Shown here: positions 5,798-34,088 of the stretch, piece by piece
Numbering within the stretch: position 1 is the first letter of the stretch
How the letters are laid out: the number at the start of each line of letters is the position of its first letter
Source of the DNA: Vulcanimicrobiota bacterium
GTDB lineage: Bacteria > Vulcanimicrobiota > Vulcanimicrobiia > Vulcanimicrobiales > Vulcanimicrobiaceae
Reading direction: 5' to 3'
DNA: 34,088 nucleotides
Assembly (NCBI GenBank): GCA_019233415.1
Contig: JAFAMK010000203.1
Location: 1-34,088 of the forward strand
Position numbers and translations under genes: made by a program
The notes under the pieces: generated by a model
Told to the model about the DNA's origin: nothing
The model's database searches: none
The model's input: the letters and a program-made list of their open reading frames with translations, nothing else

Positions 5798-7359
5798 GAC
5801 GCGTGTACTCCGTCCAGCCTGTCCAGCACGTGCCGCAGGGCGACCCGAACGCCGAAGGTGCGCTCGAAGAGGTCCGCTTTGAGCATCGCCGCGTCGAGTT
5901 CGCCCGAGGCGTCACCGTCGGCCTGCGCGGTCACGACGACCAGGCCGTCCTCGGGGACGGCCGCGACGTCCGTCACGACCCCGAGGTGGCGGACGTCGAG
6001 CCCGTCGGCGATGCGCAGGAGCGAGGCGAGCACGTCGACCCGGCGCCGGTCGCCCGGGCTCAGGGCCGCGTAGTCCGCGTGCGACGGCTTCGGCATCGCC
6101 CGGCGGTAGTAGCGGCAGATCAGCGCGATCAGGTCGCGTTCGTCGTCGCTCCAGCCCTCGAACGGCGTGTTGCGGATCAGGTACGCGGCGTGCTTGTGGT
6201 GCCCGCTCTCCGCGACGAAACGACCGATCCCGTGGAGCATCGCCGCGGCCCAGAGGAGATCGCGGTCGGTCGGGGCGAGCCCGTGCAGGGGCGCGAGGCG
6301 CTCGAACAGCACGAGGGCCAGCCGCGCGACGTGCCGCTGGTGGCCGCCCAGGTGTTCGTAGCGGCGCGCGACCGCCTCGACCGCCTCGACCCGGCGCGCG
6401 CGCGCGTCGCCGAGCCGCTGCGCGAGGGCGCGGTCCCGGTGGGCCAGATCGACGACGACCCCGTCGCGCAGCGCGCGCTCGCAGACGACGATCTCGTCGC
6501 GCCCCAGCAGCCCGAGCGCGCCGATCAGCACTGCGTTGCCGGCGACGATGATGTCGGCGCGGCGCGGGTTCATCCCCGGCATCCGGCGCCGCTCGGCCTC
6601 GCTCAGCAGCAGCATCTGGCGCTGCAGCGACTCGAGCCGCGCGCGCGCGAGCGTGTAGCCGTGCACGCGCTTGAGCGTCAGCCCGCGCTGCGCGGCGTCG
6701 AGCGCGGCGAGCCCCATGATCGTCCCGGAGGTTCCGATCGTGAGGTCGAGCCGGTAGTGCCGCACGCGCTCGGCGAGCGGGCCGAGCACCTCGGTCACGT
6801 ACGCATCGAGGCGCCGCGCCGCGCGCAGCTGATCGGCCTTGCCGCGCAGAAACGCGTCGTACAGCCGCAGGCTGCCGAGCTTCACCGAGTCGACCAGGTA
6901 CGGCCGTTCGCCGTCGGCGACGATCAGTTCCGTCGAGCCGCCGCCGATGTCGACGATGCACGCGACGCGGTCGTAGAGCGGGAAGCCGTTCGCGACACCG
7001 AGGTGGATCAGCCGCGCCTCTTCGTTGCCGTCGAGAATTTCCAGCCGCAGCCCGGTGCGCGCCTCGACCATGGCGCGGAACTCCTCGCCGTTCTCGGTCT
7101 CGCGCACCGCCGACGTGGCGACGGCGCGCATCCGTTCCGCGCCGCGCGCGTGCGCGGCGTCGGCAAAGCGCGCGATCGCGTCGACGCCGCGTTCCATCGC
7201 CTTGCGCGCGAGCCGTCCGCGTTCGAGCGCGTCGTCGCTGCCCAGGCGCACCATCTCGCGCGCCTTGTAGACGACGCGCGAGGTGTCGAATGCCGCGTCC
7301 AGCTCGACCACGATCAGGTGGATCGAGTTCGTACCGACGTCGATCGCACCGAACAGCAT
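5794..7359 (-). CDS. ppx: Ppx/GppA family exopolyphosphatase with HD-type C-terminal domain
   Basis: MLFGAIDVGTNSIHLIVVEL; VACIVDIGGGSTELIVADG; LTIGTSGTI; AAMLHGIGRFV. Stop overlaps the phoB start (ATGA). ATG at 7359 inferred within a longer ORF. Confidence 0.92.
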   Translation of the reverse strand: MLFGAIDVGTNSIHLIVVELDAAFDTSRVVYKAREMVRLGSDDALERGRLARKAMERGVDAIARFADAAHARGAERMRAVATSAVRETENGEEFRAMVEARTGLRLEILDGNEEARLIHLGVANGFPLYDRVACIVDIGGGSTELIVADGERPYLVDSVKLGSLRLYDAFLRGKADQLRAARRLDAYVTEVLGPLAERVRHYRLDLTIGTSGTIMGLAALDAAQRGLTLKRVHGYTLARARLESLQRQMLLLSEAERRRMPGMNPRRADIIVAGNAVLIGALGLLGRDEIVVCERALRDGVVVDLAHRDRALAQRLGDARARRVEAVEAVARRYEHLGGHQRHVARLALVLFERLAPLHGLAPTDRDLLWAAAMLHGIGRFVAESGHHKHAAYLIRNTPFEGWSDDERDLIALICRYYRRAMPKPSHADYAALSPGDRRRVDVLASLLRIADGLDVRHLGVVTDVAAVPEDGLVVVTAQADGDASGELDAAMLKADLFERTFGVRVALRHVLDRLDGVHAS

Positions 7360-7373
7360 GCGCCCTGCTCCGG

Positions 7374-8276
7374 CTAGGTCGTCTTTTTGCGCACGCGCAC
7401 GCCCGCCGCGCGCTCGTAGAACGTCGCGACCGACGTGTAGTCGTCGCGGCCGTGTCCTTCGCCCGAGGCCGCGGTGTACATTTGGTACGCGAGCGCGCTG
7501 GCCGGCATCGGGACGCCCATCGTGCGCGCGGAGTCGAGCGCCGCGGCGAGGTCCTTGCGCAGCAGGTCGAGCGCGAAGCCCGGCGCGTGCGAGCCGGCGA
7601 GCCAGCTGTTCGGAATCCAGTTCTGCAGCAGGTAGTTCGAACCGGTCGCGCTCGCAATGACCGCGAGAACCGCGTCGACGTCGGCGCCGGCCTTCGCGGC
7701 GAACGTCAGCGCCTCGGCGTTGGCGAGCATCACGCTCGAGATGATGACCTGGTTGACGAGCTTGACGACTTCGCCCATCCCGACGCCGCCGACGTGGTTC
7801 GGCGTCCCCATCGCTTCGAGCACCGGTTTCGCGGCGATGAAGTCGTCGTCGGACGCGCCGACGATGATCGTGAGCGTCCCGCTCTTCGCGCGCGCCGGCC
7901 CGCCGGAAACCGGCGCATCGACGAACCGGAAGCCTCCGGCGCGCAGGCGCTCGTCGAAGCCGCGCGTCGCGACCGGCGAGATCGTCGACATGTCGATGAA
8001 GAGCGTGCCCGGTTTCGCGCCGTGCGCGGCACCGTGCTCGCCGAACAGTGCCTCTTCGACCTGCGGCGCGTCGGGGACGACCGTGATGACGAACGCGCTC
8101 GCGCGCGCGACTCCGGCCGGATCGCCGCCGTCGTGCGCGCCGGCCGCGACGAGCCGTTCGACCGGCGCGCGGTCGCGGTGCGCGCACACGCTCACGGTGC
8201 AGCCGGCCCGCAGCAACGCCGCGGCCATCGGCTCGCCCATCGCGCCGACGCCGATCACCCCGACTTCGTATGCCAT
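7374..8276 (-). CDS. NAD(P)-dependent oxidoreductase, 3-hydroxyisobutyrate dehydrogenase family
   Basis: Rossmann motif GVIGVGAMGEPMAAALLRAG; FIDMSTISP; FVDAPVSGGPARAKSGTLTIIVGA; VGGVGMGEVVKLVNQ. Confidence 0.9.
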   Translation of the reverse strand: MAYEVGVIGVGAMGEPMAAALLRAGCTVSVCAHRDRAPVERLVAAGAHDGGDPAGVARASAFVITVVPDAPQVEEALFGEHGAAHGAKPGTLFIDMSTISPVATRGFDERLRAGGFRFVDAPVSGGPARAKSGTLTIIVGASDDDFIAAKPVLEAMGTPNHVGGVGMGEVVKLVNQVIISSVMLANAEALTFAAKAGADVDAVLAVIASATGSNYLLQNWIPNSWLAGSHAPGFALDLLRKDLAAALDSARTMGVPMPASALAYQMYTAASGEGHGRDDYTSVATFYERAAGVRVRKKTT

Positions 8277-8310: not shown

Positions 8311-8339
8311 GCCCTTCGCCCCTTCGCCCTTCGCCCTTC
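8311..8339 (+). repeat. Short tandem repeat (gcccttc)n leading into dispersed repeat copy 1
   Basis: gcccttc-gccccttc-gcccttc-gcccttc. Confidence 0.7.
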
Positions 8340-8361
8340 GACAAGCTCAGGATGACAGGGG
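8334..8361 (+). repeat. Dispersed repeat copy 1
   Basis: cccttcgacaagctcaggatgacagggg, in the gap before the UbiA start. Confidence 0.85.
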
Positions 8362-10537: not shown

Positions 10538-10565
10538 GCCCTTCGACAAGCTCAGGGTGACGGGG
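10538..10565 (+). repeat. Dispersed repeat copy 3
   Basis: gcccttcgacaagctcagggtgacgggg; fills the convergent gap between the NifU-like and CoxM-like genes. Confidence 0.85.
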
Positions 10566-29887: not shown

Positions 29888-29981
29888 CCTCTTCCCGGGG
29901 ATTTCTTCCGCCGTTCAATAGTCATTCGTAGTTAATTCCTACCGGTCAGCGATCATCGGGGCAGTGAGAGGAGGCTCCGAC

Positions 29982-31529
29982 GTGGTTAAGCTGCCCCCGC
30001 CTAGTGACGTGCTCCCGAACCGGCCGACCCGGCCGACCCTCGTCGTGGCCGAGCCACAGGCTCAGGTCCGCATCGAGCGGCCGCGTCTGCTGCAAGCACT
30101 CGCCGCGCGGGCCGAGATGCCGATCCGGTTCCTCTGCGCGCCGACCGGCTCCGGAAAGACGACGCTGCTCCGGCAGTACGTCGCCGCGAGGCCGGGTGCC
30201 GCCTACATCGCCACCCCGCTCCGCTTCTCGTCCAGTGCGCTGCGCGAGATCCTCGACGGCACGACCGAGGTCGTCCTCGACGACTTCGATCTCGCCGACC
30301 CGCGCACGGTCGAAGGGCTCATGCGCGCGATCGCCTCGGCCGACTCCGGTCTGCCCCGGCTGATCGTCGCCGGCCGCTCCCGCCGGCTGCTCTACGTCCA
30401 AAGCCTCGTCGCACGCGGTCACGGCGCCGTCCTCGGCGCCCGCGACCTCGCCTTCGACCGCGCCGACGTCGGGCAGCTCGGCACCGCGCTCGGCCTGCGC
30501 CTGACCCGCGACGACGTCACGCAGCTGCTACACGTCACCGAAGGCTGGACGCTGCCGCTGACCTGGATGCTCCGCGCGACCGCGAACGCCGGCTGGACCG
30601 CGCGCGAAGGCGTCGAGCGCTGGCTGAACGACGCCGGCGGCGCACTCCTCGAGCTGGTCGACGAGGCCGGCTCCATCGACGACGACGCGCGCCGCAGCTT
30701 CAACGCCGTCCTGGCCGGCAACGCCGTCGCCGACAACGTCACCGCGACGCAGCTCGAAGCCGCCGGCTGCCCGGTCGTCCGCGACCGCGACGGCGTGCGC
30801 CCCTACCGCATCCTGACCAGCGTCGCCGCCCGCGGCGGCGCGCACCCCGCGACGGTCGCAGCGCCGGAGGACGGCGTGTTCAACGGGTCCGGCCCGGTCG
30901 GCGCGAGCGCGACCGGCGAACGGATGACGATGAAGCTGCTCGGCCGGTTCGTCTGCGAGGTCGGCGGAAACCCCGTCGCGTTCGCACGCCGCCGCGACCG
31001 TAACGTCCTCGCCTACATCGCGCTCGCACCCGGCGCGCGCGTCTCGCGCGACGAACTGCTGGCCGCGTTCTGGCCCGGCGTCACGCACGCCGTCGCCTGC
31101 CAGGGGCTGCGCACCACGCTGTGCCGCCTGCGCCGCGCGATCGCCGACGCCGCGAACGGCGCCGACGCGCAGCGCTACCTGCACGTCGACGCGCACGCCG
31201 CGCTCGACCTCGCCAACGTCGACGTCGACGCGCGCACCTTCGCCGACCTGGCCGACGGCGCCGAACGCGCCGACCGCCGCGGCGACGCCGACCAGGCGCA
31301 GACCGGCTACGTCGAAGCCGAACGCGCGTACGTCGGCCACCTGCTCGAGTCCGACGCCGTCGAAGACCCGCTCACCGCGCGCGTCGCCGAATATGCCGCG
31401 CGCTTCGAACAGGTGCTCGCGCGCCTCGTCGACTTCTCGCTCCGCGAGCACCGCTTCGACGCCGTCCGCACCTACGAGCGCCGCGCCCTCGCCCTGAGCC
31501 TTCCGCCCGTCGCAGGCCGCACCGCGTGA
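29982..31529 (+). CDS. Transcriptional regulator: N-terminal MalT/STAND-like NTPase, then OmpR-type wHTH and BTAD domain
   Basis: Walker A 'FLCAPTGSGKTTLLRQYVAARPG', Walker B-like 'TEVVLDDFDLADP'; C-terminal 'MKLLGRFVCEVGGNPVAFARRRDRNVLAYIALAPGARVSRDELLAAFWPGVTHAVACQGLRTTLCRLRRAI' and BTAD-like helices. GTG at 29982 preferred over 29964 because GAGGAGG lies just upstream. Confidence 0.85.
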   Translation: MVKLPPPSDVLPNRPTRPTLVVAEPQAQVRIERPRLLQALAARAEMPIRFLCAPTGSGKTTLLRQYVAARPGAAYIATPLRFSSSALREILDGTTEVVLDDFDLADPRTVEGLMRAIASADSGLPRLIVAGRSRRLLYVQSLVARGHGAVLGARDLAFDRADVGQLGTALGLRLTRDDVTQLLHVTEGWTLPLTWMLRATANAGWTAREGVERWLNDAGGALLELVDEAGSIDDDARRSFNAVLAGNAVADNVTATQLEAAGCPVVRDRDGVRPYRILTSVAARGGAHPATVAAPEDGVFNGSGPVGASATGERMTMKLLGRFVCEVGGNPVAFARRRDRNVLAYIALAPGARVSRDELLAAFWPGVTHAVACQGLRTTLCRLRRAIADAANGADAQRYLHVDAHAALDLANVDVDARTFADLADGAERADRRGDADQAQTGYVEAERAYVGHLLESDAVEDPLTARVAEYAARFEQVLARLVDFSLREHRFDAVRTYERRALALSLPPVAGRTA

Positions 31530-32701
31530 ACCCGATCCGGCCGGTCCACACGAGCCGGCCGGCGCCCGCGAACGGTACGGCGCTCGTCGAATACGTCGGC
31601 GACGGCCTCGCCGCCGACGTGCGCGTCGACGCGGTCGATCACCGCGACGGCGCGGCGTGGTACGTGATCCGTCTCGCCGGTACGTACGAGTCCGCCTCGG
31701 GCCGCATCGTCGGCACCACCGCGCGCGGAACCAAAACGGAACTCGGCACGGTCGACGTCGCGCCCGGCGCGATGGGCACCGCGCGCTTCGCCGTCCCCCT
31801 CGCCAAGACGCGCCGCGCGTTCGACGCGGTCCGCCTCGAACTGCGCTGCGGCGAACGCCACCTCCACGTCGCCGTCCCGCCACCGCCGCCGCGCAAACGC
31901 GGCGGCTTCCGCACCGGCGTTGCCTTGCTCGCCACCGGTCTCGCTGCAACGACCTTGGGTGGCGCAACCTACGCCGCATCCGCGATGCGCCCGCCCGCCA
32001 CGACGGCGCTCCCAATGCTTGCCGCGCCGCACGCACCCGCCGCCGTTCATGCGCCGAGCGCCGCGCGCATCGCCGCCTTCTCGGCGCACCGCGACCTCAT
32101 CGCCGGCGGCGAGAGCGTCCTCGTCTCCTACCTCGCCGTCGCAACGACGGGAACCGCCACGGTCACCGACCCGCAAGGGAACGCGGTCGCGCGCGCCAGC
32201 TTCAGCCGCGAAGGAACGACCCGCATCCCGATCCCGCACGGCCTCGAAACGCGCATGCTCACCGTCCGCCTCGACGTCCGACGCGCCGCATCGCACGCCT
32301 ACGCCACGCTCGACCTCCAGCCGCTCGCCGTCCCCGCAGCTGTCGTGCCGCCGGCGACGGTGAACGCAGCCTCCGCGGCAACCGCGACGATGCGCACGAC
32401 AAGCACGGTTCCTCCCGCGGATGCCGGCACCGAACCATTCGCCGTGGTCGGCGCGCCGCTCGCGGGGCGTCCGCTGACGATCGCGATTCGCGGTCAGGTC
32501 GCCCGGATGCACCTGCGGCTGGAAGACAGCACCGGCCTGGCGCTCGACGAAGTCGACGTTCCCCCGACCGCCACCGCGATCGCACTGCGCACGCCGCCCG
32601 CCGCAGCGCCGCGCATCTACTACCTGACCTGCACCTACGACACCGGCGCCGGCGAGGAAGTCCTCGTTCGCGCGGTCAGCGTCGCATCGTCTCCCACGTA
32701 G
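31526..32701 (+). CDS. Hypothetical single-pass transmembrane protein coupled to the BTAD regulator
   Basis: Soluble N-terminal region, then 'PPPPPRKRGGFRTGVALLATGLAATTLGGATYAAS' (basic stop plus TM), then a long Ala/Thr-rich beta-type domain; GTGA overlap with the upstream gene. Confidence 0.65.
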   Translation: MNPIRPVHTSRPAPANGTALVEYVGDGLAADVRVDAVDHRDGAAWYVIRLAGTYESASGRIVGTTARGTKTELGTVDVAPGAMGTARFAVPLAKTRRAFDAVRLELRCGERHLHVAVPPPPPRKRGGFRTGVALLATGLAATTLGGATYAASAMRPPATTALPMLAAPHAPAAVHAPSAARIAAFSAHRDLIAGGESVLVSYLAVATTGTATVTDPQGNAVARASFSREGTTRIPIPHGLETRMLTVRLDVRRAASHAYATLDLQPLAVPAAVVPPATVNAASAATATMRTTSTVPPADAGTEPFAVVGAPLAGRPLTIAIRGQVARMHLRLEDSTGLALDEVDVPPTATAIALRTPPAAAPRIYYLTCTYDTGAGEEVLVRAVSVASSPT

Positions 32702-32708
32702 CTCGCTG

Positions 32709-33128
32709 CTAGCGGTCGATTCCGAGGCGTACGACGCGCAGCCGGCCCGCGCGCCGGAGTCGCACGTACACCGTGAATCGCCACCCTTCGCGCAACAGCG
32801 TGAACACCGAACCCGGTCCGTTCGCCGCGACGATGCGAGCCTCGACGCGCGCGACTGGAAATCCGACCGAGCGCGCAAACGCGACCGCTTCGTCGCGATA
32901 GCCCTCAGGGCCAACCGACTCGCGCCCGTGCGCGAACGCCCGGTAACGCGCCTCGAACGACGCGCGACCGCACGCGGCGAGCGTGCGCGGCAAAAGCGCG
33001 CGAAGCGCCGTTAGCCGCTTGCGAAACACGATTTCGACGTAGTGCGCGACGTCCGCCTCGTCCACGCCGGGAACGGTCAGTCGCTCACCGGTCAGTGCCC
33101 GAGCGAGCGCGCGCTGATAGGCGATCAT
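32709..33128 (-). CDS. Short putative partner of the DUF692 enzyme (possible HvfC/BufC/DUF2063-like)
   Basis: 139 aa MIAYQRALARALTGERLTVPGVDEADVAHYVEIVFRKRLTALRALLPRTLAACGRASFEARYRAFAHGRESVGPEGYRDEAVAFARSVGFPVARVEARIVAANGPGSVFTLLREGWRFTVYVRLRRAGRLRVVRLGIDR; ATGA overlap with the DUF692 gene stop. Family assignment is by helical pattern only. Confidence 0.6.
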   Translation of the reverse strand: MIAYQRALARALTGERLTVPGVDEADVAHYVEIVFRKRLTALRALLPRTLAACGRASFEARYRAFAHGRESVGPEGYRDEAVAFARSVGFPVARVEARIVAANGPGSVFTLLREGWRFTVYVRLRRAGRLRVVRLGIDR

Positions 33129-34018
33129 GCGACGATACGGCCGTGCTGCGCCACACCCGTCATCCTGAGCTTGTCGAAGGACGGCGCGGACTCCGCCGCC
33201 GCGGACTCGACAACCGCGCGTCGCGCCACCGCGCGTGCGGCGTCGAGTTCGGCGAGCAGGGTCTCGAACGGCGGCAGCCCCGTTTCGCGTTCGATCAGCG
33301 TCAGCGGCGGGATGCGGCGCGCGCACAGCGCGGCGTAGAGGCGCCACGTCGCATCGGGAACCGGGGCATCGTGTGAGTCCGCGTACTCGCTGCCGATGCG
33401 GCGACCACCGGCGAGATGCACCTCGACGATGCGTTCGACCGGCACGGCGGCCACGACCGCGTCGGCGTCGCACCCGAGGTTCCAGGCGTCGGCGTGCAGG
33501 TTCTCCACGTCGAGGATCAACCCGCAGTCCGCCGCCGCGCAAACCCCTGCGAGGAATTCCGCCGGCGCAAGCTCCGCGCCGTCGACTGCAAACGGCGCCG
33601 CGGGGTTTTCCAGCGCGAACGGCGCGGTGACGATCGCCCGCACGCGCGCTGCATTGCGCGCGACCACATCCACGGCTTCGTGCGTGTGCGGGAGTGGCGC
33701 GAAGGCGCCGAGCTGCGTCGTTCCGACGCGGGTGAAGGCGAGATGGTCACTCCACCACAGCGGGCGCACGTAGTCGAGCAGACGCGCGATCCGTTCGAGG
33801 TGGCGTTCGTCGACGCCGTCGGCGCTGCCGATCGACGTCCCGAGCGCGTGCACGGTGAGCGGAAAGTGCGCGCGCAGCACCTCCAGCTCGTCGCGCTGCT
33901 CGGCGGTCAGGTCGAGGAAGTGCTCGGCGACGATCTCGAGCGCTTCCACGCGCGGCCGCGTCGCGAAGAGCGCCGCACGCTGCTCGGCGCGGTAGAGCAG
34001 CCCGAAGCGCGGCGTCAC
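33125..34018 (-). CDS. DUF692 family (MNIO, multinuclear non-heme iron-dependent oxidative) enzyme
   Basis: MTPRFGLLYRAEQRAALFATRPRVEALEIVAEHFLD; HALGTSIGSADG; LWWSDHLAFT; 'LENPAAP'; 'CGLILDVENLHADA'; 'IVEVHLAGGRRIGSEYADSHDAPVPDATWRLY'; 'PPLTLIERETGLPPFETLLAELDAA'. All are hallmark DUF692 blocks. GTG at 34018 forms GTGA with the upstream stop. Confidence 0.9.
   Translation of the reverse strand: MTPRFGLLYRAEQRAALFATRPRVEALEIVAEHFLDLTAEQRDELEVLRAHFPLTVHALGTSIGSADGVDERHLERIARLLDYVRPLWWSDHLAFTRVGTTQLGAFAPLPHTHEAVDVVARNAARVRAIVTAPFALENPAAPFAVDGAELAPAEFLAGVCAAADCGLILDVENLHADAWNLGCDADAVVAAVPVERIVEVHLAGGRRIGSEYADSHDAPVPDATWRLYAALCARRIPPLTLIERETGLPPFETLLAELDAARAVARRAVVESAAAESAPSFDKLRMTGVAQHGRIVA
33157..33181 (-). 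repeat. Dispersed repeat copy 4, inverted and inside the DUF692 coding sequence
   Basis: Plus strand ccgtcatcctgagcttgtcgaagga; minus strand tccttcgacaagctcaggatgacgg. Confidence 0.85.
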
Positions 34019-34088
34019 CCGCCGCCGCAGCCTCCGCCGCAGCCGCTGCTGCACCCACTGCTGCTGCAGCTGCCGCTGCCGTCGCCGC
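34015..34088 (-). CDS. C-terminal end of an upstream ORF with a Cys/Gly-rich tail (candidate MNIO substrate; truncated by the window end)
   Basis: Minus-strand frame from 34086 reads GDGSGSCSSSGCSSGCGGGCGGG followed by TGA (34015-34017), overlapping the DUF692 GTG start by 4 nt. Not in the ORF track because its start is outside the window. Confidence 0.75.
   Translation of the reverse strand, partial: GDGSGSCSSSGCSSGCGGGCGGG

Follow-up and report, generated by a model that had tools for sequence, protein, structure and literature searches.

A Three-Gene Cassette at the End of a Contig

The DNA analyzed here (34,088 nucleotides, hereafter the window) comes from the lineage Candidatus Eremiobacterota and raises two linked questions: whether a cysteine-rich reading frame that runs into an MNIO (DUF692) gene encodes a real protein tail, and whether that tail is the substrate of the enzyme. 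At the right end of the window, on the minus strand, three genes overlap head to tail (Table 1). The TGA stop of the tail frame (34086–34015), at 34017–34015, overlaps the GTG start of the MNIO gene at 34018–34016 within the tetranucleotide GTGA, and the MNIO stop in turn shares 4 nt (ATGA) with the start of the partner gene. Translation and these overlaps reproduced the frame and the GTGA junction described in an earlier reading made from the letters of the DNA (the sequence-only reading), and the coupling of tail and MNIO is thereby confirmed.

TABLE 1. Genes of the cassette, with the evidence for each assignment
Feature	Position	Strand	Evidence
Tail-bearing gene, 3' end; GDGSGSCSSSGCSSGCGGGCGGG followed by stop (C-X4-C-X3-C-X3-C-GGG)	34015..34088	-	Translation; tails of homologous relatives; full gene in same-genus genome G007
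MNIO (DUF692), 297 aa, GTG start	33125..34018	-	PF05114; nine Fe ligands
Partner, 139 aa, DUF2063-like (probable PME-type 2), ATG start	32709..33128	-	Weak DUF2063 match; position

Because the contig (G000:C388) ends at position 34088, the upstream gene is present as its last 23 codons, without a start or its full length. The source assembly is ~75% complete, comprises 456 contigs, and encodes one MNIO. A search of the whole assembly returned no match to the missing N-terminus of the tail gene, and an HMM search returned no match to TIGR04222 anywhere in the assembly, the N-terminus of the window protein lying beyond the contig. No viral relatives were found, neither a copper gene nor a metal regulator was recognized adjoining the cassette, and the tail region contains a DNA hairpin that is within the range of shuffled sequences (z -1.6).

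The Tail Frame Is Conserved Upstream of MNIO

The contig terminates in GC-rich repetitive sequence, and the upstream frame might accordingly be a chance low-complexity reading of such a repeat. Alternative frames are open too: the other two frames of the same strand are themselves of low complexity, one poly-Ala and the other Arg/Gln-rich, such that composition by itself is no proof of coding. We therefore turn to relatives of the MNIO, which were recovered with an alignment as query and not in a contig search with P0003 alone. An ORF with a Gly/Ser/Cys tail, defined as at least 3 Cys and at least 30% Gly plus Ser among its final 60 residues, was directly upstream of MNIO in 45 of 58 relatives (named genomes) and within 4 kb in 5 more, against a background of 23 among 1398 other ORFs of at least 150 aa from the same loci. 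The majority of these 23 are apparently tails of paralogues.

Related tail-MNIO loci were identified in Eremiobacterota, Cyanobacteria, Planctomycetota, Acidobacteriota, and other phyla. Gly or Ser makes up 981 of the 1079 residues that separate tail cysteines, and the cysteine spacing to which the sequence-only reading had drawn attention is conserved across homologous loci, with gaps of 2–5 residues between cysteines (208 of 251) and the last Cys positioned 2–4 residues from the C-terminus (37 of 45 tails). The motif CGGGCGG of the window tail is present in 27 of 41 aligned homologues, including cyanobacterial ones. Since the tail is conserved upstream of MNIO across relatives and distant phyla, and since same-genus genomes hold a full gene in the same place with the same type of tail, the tail frame is coding, as the sequence-only reading had supposed; the full genes and recurring tails of relatives refute a chance frame, to which we assign a negligible probability.

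The Carrier Protein and Apparent Loss of Membrane Helices

Full upstream genes of sister taxa place the tail on a protein of 220–310 aa. In G047, G017, G025, G051, G139, and G122, this protein scored above the TIGR04222 HMM cut-off of 43 bits, which bears out the suggested association of TIGR04222 proteins with DUF692 genes (the MNIO sequences of the same-family genomes G047, G025, G051, and G017 are identical to those of PMHP01000159, PLFC01000001, JAFAHZ010000147, and JANYGA010000243, respectively). The same HMM gave no match in the genus of the window: the 224 aa carrier of G007, a same-genus genome whose MNIO is 79% identical to that of the window, matched 0 NCBIfam families. Despite the missing HMM match, the G007 carrier (queried without its tail) aligned to the 41 TIGR04222 tail proteins with an hhalign probability of 95.9 (E = 5e-9) and is, as judged from this profile comparison, a TIGR04222 relative.

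In this alignment, the G007 carrier keeps the DPIEVAFVRKG domain and the RGK segment, and gaps occupy the positions of the N-terminal helix (TM1) and of the TM2-TM3 hairpin. By simple Kyte-Doolittle windows, on which all transmembrane calls here are based, its best 19-residue window scored 1.52, as compared to three windows in the membrane forms that are mostly ~2 or above. The tail-bearer of the window's genus is thus apparently soluble and without membrane helices. We infer helix loss in the window's own species from G007 and the second same-genus copy, G005, because the window contains the tail alone. The suggestion that the tail sits on a large membrane protein instead of a small leader-core peptide therefore holds in part: the carriers of sister taxa are too long for such a peptide, but the same-genus carrier does not appear to be a membrane form. 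In G005, the tail gene is frameshifted near a GGGGGG run in a single-contig assembly (L027, MNIO-oriented 7345–7990), owing to sequencing error or decay, and its fragments resemble G007. The tails of sister taxa, including that of G007, have added histidines (HGGHGGGGHGDGGGGHGG), which suggests metal binding.

TIGR04222 proteins were detected in 23 of 28 tail-survey genomes searched whole; the TIGR04222-free genomes (L096, L098, L104, L105, and L107) were all from loci whose MNIO had no tail neighbor. In Eremiobacterota, each of the seven complete TIGR04222 proteins encoded immediately before an MNIO has 4–10 tail cysteines. Likewise, 26 of 26 TIGR04222 proteins upstream of MNIO in Mycobacteriales have at least 3 tail Cys, whereas several neighboring paralogues have 0–1, with counts for paralogues away from MNIO drawn from the loci examined and not from a systematic sample. 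Two Cys-tailed TIGR04222 copies were located away from any MNIO, and both genomes encode a tail-type MNIO elsewhere. Several Nostocales (cyanobacterial loci L055, L060, L064, and L069) have Cys-tailed TIGR04222 genes in tandem, two or three of them ahead of a single MNIO.

The TIGR04222 family has been described as integral membrane proteins, with the tail placed in the periplasm (PMC12452194). Counts of Lys plus Arg, averaged over 41 homologues, were 0.3 for the stretch of up to 15 residues that precedes TM1, 1.9 (per 15 residues) immediately following TM1, 2.3 (per 15) ahead of TM2, and 4.5 (per 20) following TM3. Under the positive-inside rule, this distribution would make both the post-TM3 segment and the globular domain cytoplasmic. 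In an AlphaFold2 model, the G051 protein comprises long helices at residues 6–30, 145–176, and 181–198, a 14-residue helix at 232–245, and a disordered tail, and a Foldseek search with a TIGR04222 model (pLDDT 89) returned no significant PDB match. The hydropathy of the fourth segment is borderline (mean 1.53), and the side on which the tail lies depends on whether this segment crosses the membrane. A cytosolic tail would be reachable by a cytosolic MNIO, and the helix-free form would fit a cytosolic tail more simply.

The MNIO and Its Partner

The assignment of the enzyme to DUF692 in the sequence-only reading was borne out by a match to PF05114 (E = 4.8e-73; 246 bits against a cut-off of 25). 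Residues H57, H92, E137, D170, N173, H201, D214, H216, and E243 align with H71, H107, E151, D184, N187, H216, D229, H231, and E258, the nine iron ligands of TglH as given in PMC10880893, and all nine are invariant among seven Eremiobacterota homologues. By this alignment, the active site is intact. The enzyme missed the equivalog cut-offs of BufB (214.7 against 310 bits) and HvfB (154.9 against 360). In a tree of 62 rows, it was positioned inside a clade of MNIOs with Cys-tailed neighbors, and bufferin-type MNIOs of the same phylum were across a split with 95/90 support; three bufferin-type loci that a regular expression had labeled as 'tail' (L032, L041, and L042) fell within the bufferin clade and were left out of account.

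Near the tail clade are MNIOs from the Verrucomicrobiota (L096, L098, and L099) that keep the downstream partner but follow a different, tail-less upstream protein. TIGR04222 was absent from both Verrucomicrobiota genomes searched, and these MNIOs possibly have a different substrate. The 3' end of the window MNIO gene also carries a dispersed repeat, CATCCTGAGCNTGTCGAAGGA (33161–33181), with further copies at 8334–8354 and 10539–10559 of the window and 35 copies in the assembly, compared to 0 for the reversed control. The repeat is in frame near the MNIO stop and gives rise to the C-terminal sequence SFDKLRMTG, which is not found in same-genus enzymes.

The partner (P0002) matched DUF2063 below the gathering threshold (E = 1.7e-4; 22.2 bits against 27.2), and its hhalign match to the partners of bufferin-type loci was weak (E = 2.7e-4; probability 41%). 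A sequence-profile search of the PDB with the partner yielded marginal matches, and a Foldseek search with its model (pLDDT 88) yielded no significant PDB match. In 49 of 58 relatives, MNIO is immediately followed by a gene of the partner family, and by position and size the partner is probably a PME-type 2 protein, a type listed as partners in TIGR04222-MNIO clusters (PMC12452194).

In Sister Species, an ABC Exporter Operon Hosts the Cassette

The genes for an ABC ATPase and an FtsX-type permease flank the cassette in G007, G005, and G017, within a conserved operon that also encodes a UbiE-like methyltransferase, a FAD_binding_3 oxidoreductase, an SRPBCC polyketide cyclase, and a beta-ketoacyl synthase and that is followed by a CrtC/lipocalin (AttH-like) gene. 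The ATPase and permease genes are directly adjacent, with no cassette between them, in 17 other examined genomes of the family. In G025, they are likewise uninterrupted and the cassette is elsewhere in the genome. At the cassette position in G032 (L154, 4780–6037), a tail-less TIGR04222 protein that lacks cysteines near its C-terminus precedes a manganese-efflux-like gene of the Mntp family (PF02659; E = 5e-30), and there is no MNIO. Across these genomes, the cassette thus behaves as a unit that may be present, missing, or relocated, and tail and MNIO travel together.

In the genome of the window, a contig of 2888 bp (G000:C81:1-2888; L050) is collinear with the ferredoxin-to-ketosynthase half of this operon at 79–80% identity. 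It breaks off within the ketosynthase gene, and the window contig picks up within the tail gene; the two probably adjoin across a gap, expected from G007 to be ~2.3 kb, that no read or contig spans. An orthologous permease was not found in the assembly. A SARP/BTAD-like regulator and the gene next to it (29964–32701, plus strand) are convergent to the cassette in the window, and genes similar to this pair are 4–6 kb downstream of the cassette in G005, in the other orientation. Within the ketosynthase/exporter operon, the role of the cassette could be metal supply, protection of the pathway, or coincidental co-expression.

A Proposed Modification System and Its Alternatives

We propose that these three genes constitute a single cassette for post-translational modification. 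Its upstream gene would encode a protein of ~220 aa (a length taken from sister species) in which a TIGR04222-type globular domain is joined to a Gly/Ser tail that is disordered, carries four cysteines, and terminates in CGGGCGGG. Together, the DUF2063-like partner and the globular domain would act as a leader that docks the carrier on the MNIO, and the di- or tri-iron enzyme would use O2 to oxidize the tail cysteines together with their neighboring backbone amide, most likely forming 5-thiooxazole-type heterocycles. The modified tail would then present a row of metal ligands of the thiol type, which in the simplest case would bind copper or some other soft metal. Pairs of MNIO and DUF2063 proteins install 5-thiooxazole on Cys, and their products bind copper (PMC13097082).

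That the tail is the MNIO substrate is likely, given that the cassette is conserved across many phyla, that Cys tails accompany MNIO throughout the Eremiobacterota (7 of 7) and Mycobacteriales (26 of 26) proteins and are missing together with it at the G032 position, and that the window enzyme belongs to the tail-associated clade with all iron ligands kept. We consider it probable that the cassette as a whole operates in this way, through docking by carrier and partner and oxidation of the cysteines to metal-binding heterocycles; the two Cys-tailed TIGR04222 copies away from MNIO, the weak relation of the partner to DUF2063/RRE, and the lack of a recognizable copper gene or metal regulator beside the cassette weigh against it.

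The tail could instead be the substrate of a reaction other than thiooxazole formation, such as one yielding an oxazolone-thioamide, excision of a beta-carbon on Cys, or a reaction on the C-terminal Gly. MNIOs do perform very different reactions (PMC12452194, Table 1; PMC10880893), and the enzyme both falls below the BufB cut-off and groups away from bufferin-type enzymes. However, the Gly/Ser-Cys-Gly context permits the Cys-heterocycle route, TglH-like excision requires a C-terminal Cys where here three Gly follow the last one, and no PEARL-type gene for amino acid addition was recognized in the operons examined; we regard a different reaction as an unlikely alternative. Less likely still, and in our view improbable, is that the tail is an unmodified appendage that binds or delivers metal, supplying iron to the MNIO or buffering metal, with the enzyme acting on another substrate. 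Tails rich in Cys, His, and Gly bind metals without modification and, as noted, occur on TIGR04222 copies away from MNIO genes, but tail cysteines track MNIO adjacency, being absent from G032 where MNIO is missing from the same operon position, and no other candidate substrate was seen within the cassette.

A more specific reading for this genus is possible and is offered tentatively. The MNIO may modify the tail of a soluble, cytosolic, folded protein that has neither a signal peptide nor membrane helices, so as to produce a permanent, modified metal-binding domain and not an exported peptide, as a module slotted into the ketosynthase/ABC-exporter operon to serve it. MNIO loci with TIGR04222 are a large MNIO group without a known product, and the published view is of membrane-protein substrates, which are hard to express, with tails assumed to face the periplasm. 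That a helix-free form takes the operon position held by a membrane form in a sister genus points to globular domain plus tail as the functional unit. The helix-free carrier is also a tractable, natural, and apparently soluble protein with which to ask whether an MNIO modifies the end of a folded protein, and the G032 locus, with its tail-less TIGR04222 protein and no MNIO, is a natural control.

Comparison With Known Systems

The MNIO of the methanobactin system (MbnABC) acts on an internal Cys; membership in this system was rejected, as the MbnB model scored 33.8 bits on the window enzyme against a cut-off of 325. The pearlin system (TglA/TglHI) has an MNIO with the same nine iron ligands and, like that predicted here, C-terminal Cys chemistry. 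Membership was rejected here as well, since the last tail Cys is followed by GGG, and no PEARL gene was recognized.

Bufferins and captophorins (BufABC, HvfABC, and FonABC) likewise place an MNIO and a DUF2063-like partner beside a Cys-rich substrate, with likely Cys oxidation and metal binding. Their precursors carry a signal peptide and DUF2282 or EGKCG motifs, and their PME-type 1 partners are full-length (~260 aa), whereas here a Gly/Ser/Cys-tailed protein goes with a partner of 139 aa. Bufferin-type loci of the same phylum encode precursors with GKGGC repeats and DUF2063-like partners of ~260 aa.

The closest likeness is to the TIGR04222 (near_uncomplex)-MNIO-PME-type 2 clusters of Leprevost et al. 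(2025; PMC12452194), who proposed TIGR04222 proteins as putative MNIO substrates. These clusters have the same Cys/Ser/Gly C-terminal tail and the same order of tail protein, MNIO, and short DUF2063-like protein. The sequence-only reading knew of no assigned product or function; the association itself had already been described, and the TIGR04222-MNIO pairing is an already published prediction. No experimental study of the pairing and no demonstrated product were found in a literature search that largely excluded subscription journals, and a text search of PMC12452194 turned up neither a helix-free carrier nor the ketosynthase/ABC operon. The published carriers are integral membrane proteins, in contrast to the G007 carrier, which has neither an NCBIfam match nor membrane helices. 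What is added here is this helix-free carrier related to TIGR04222, the operon setting of the cassette, the tail-less and MNIO-free variant in G032, and the collinear contig in the genome of the window.
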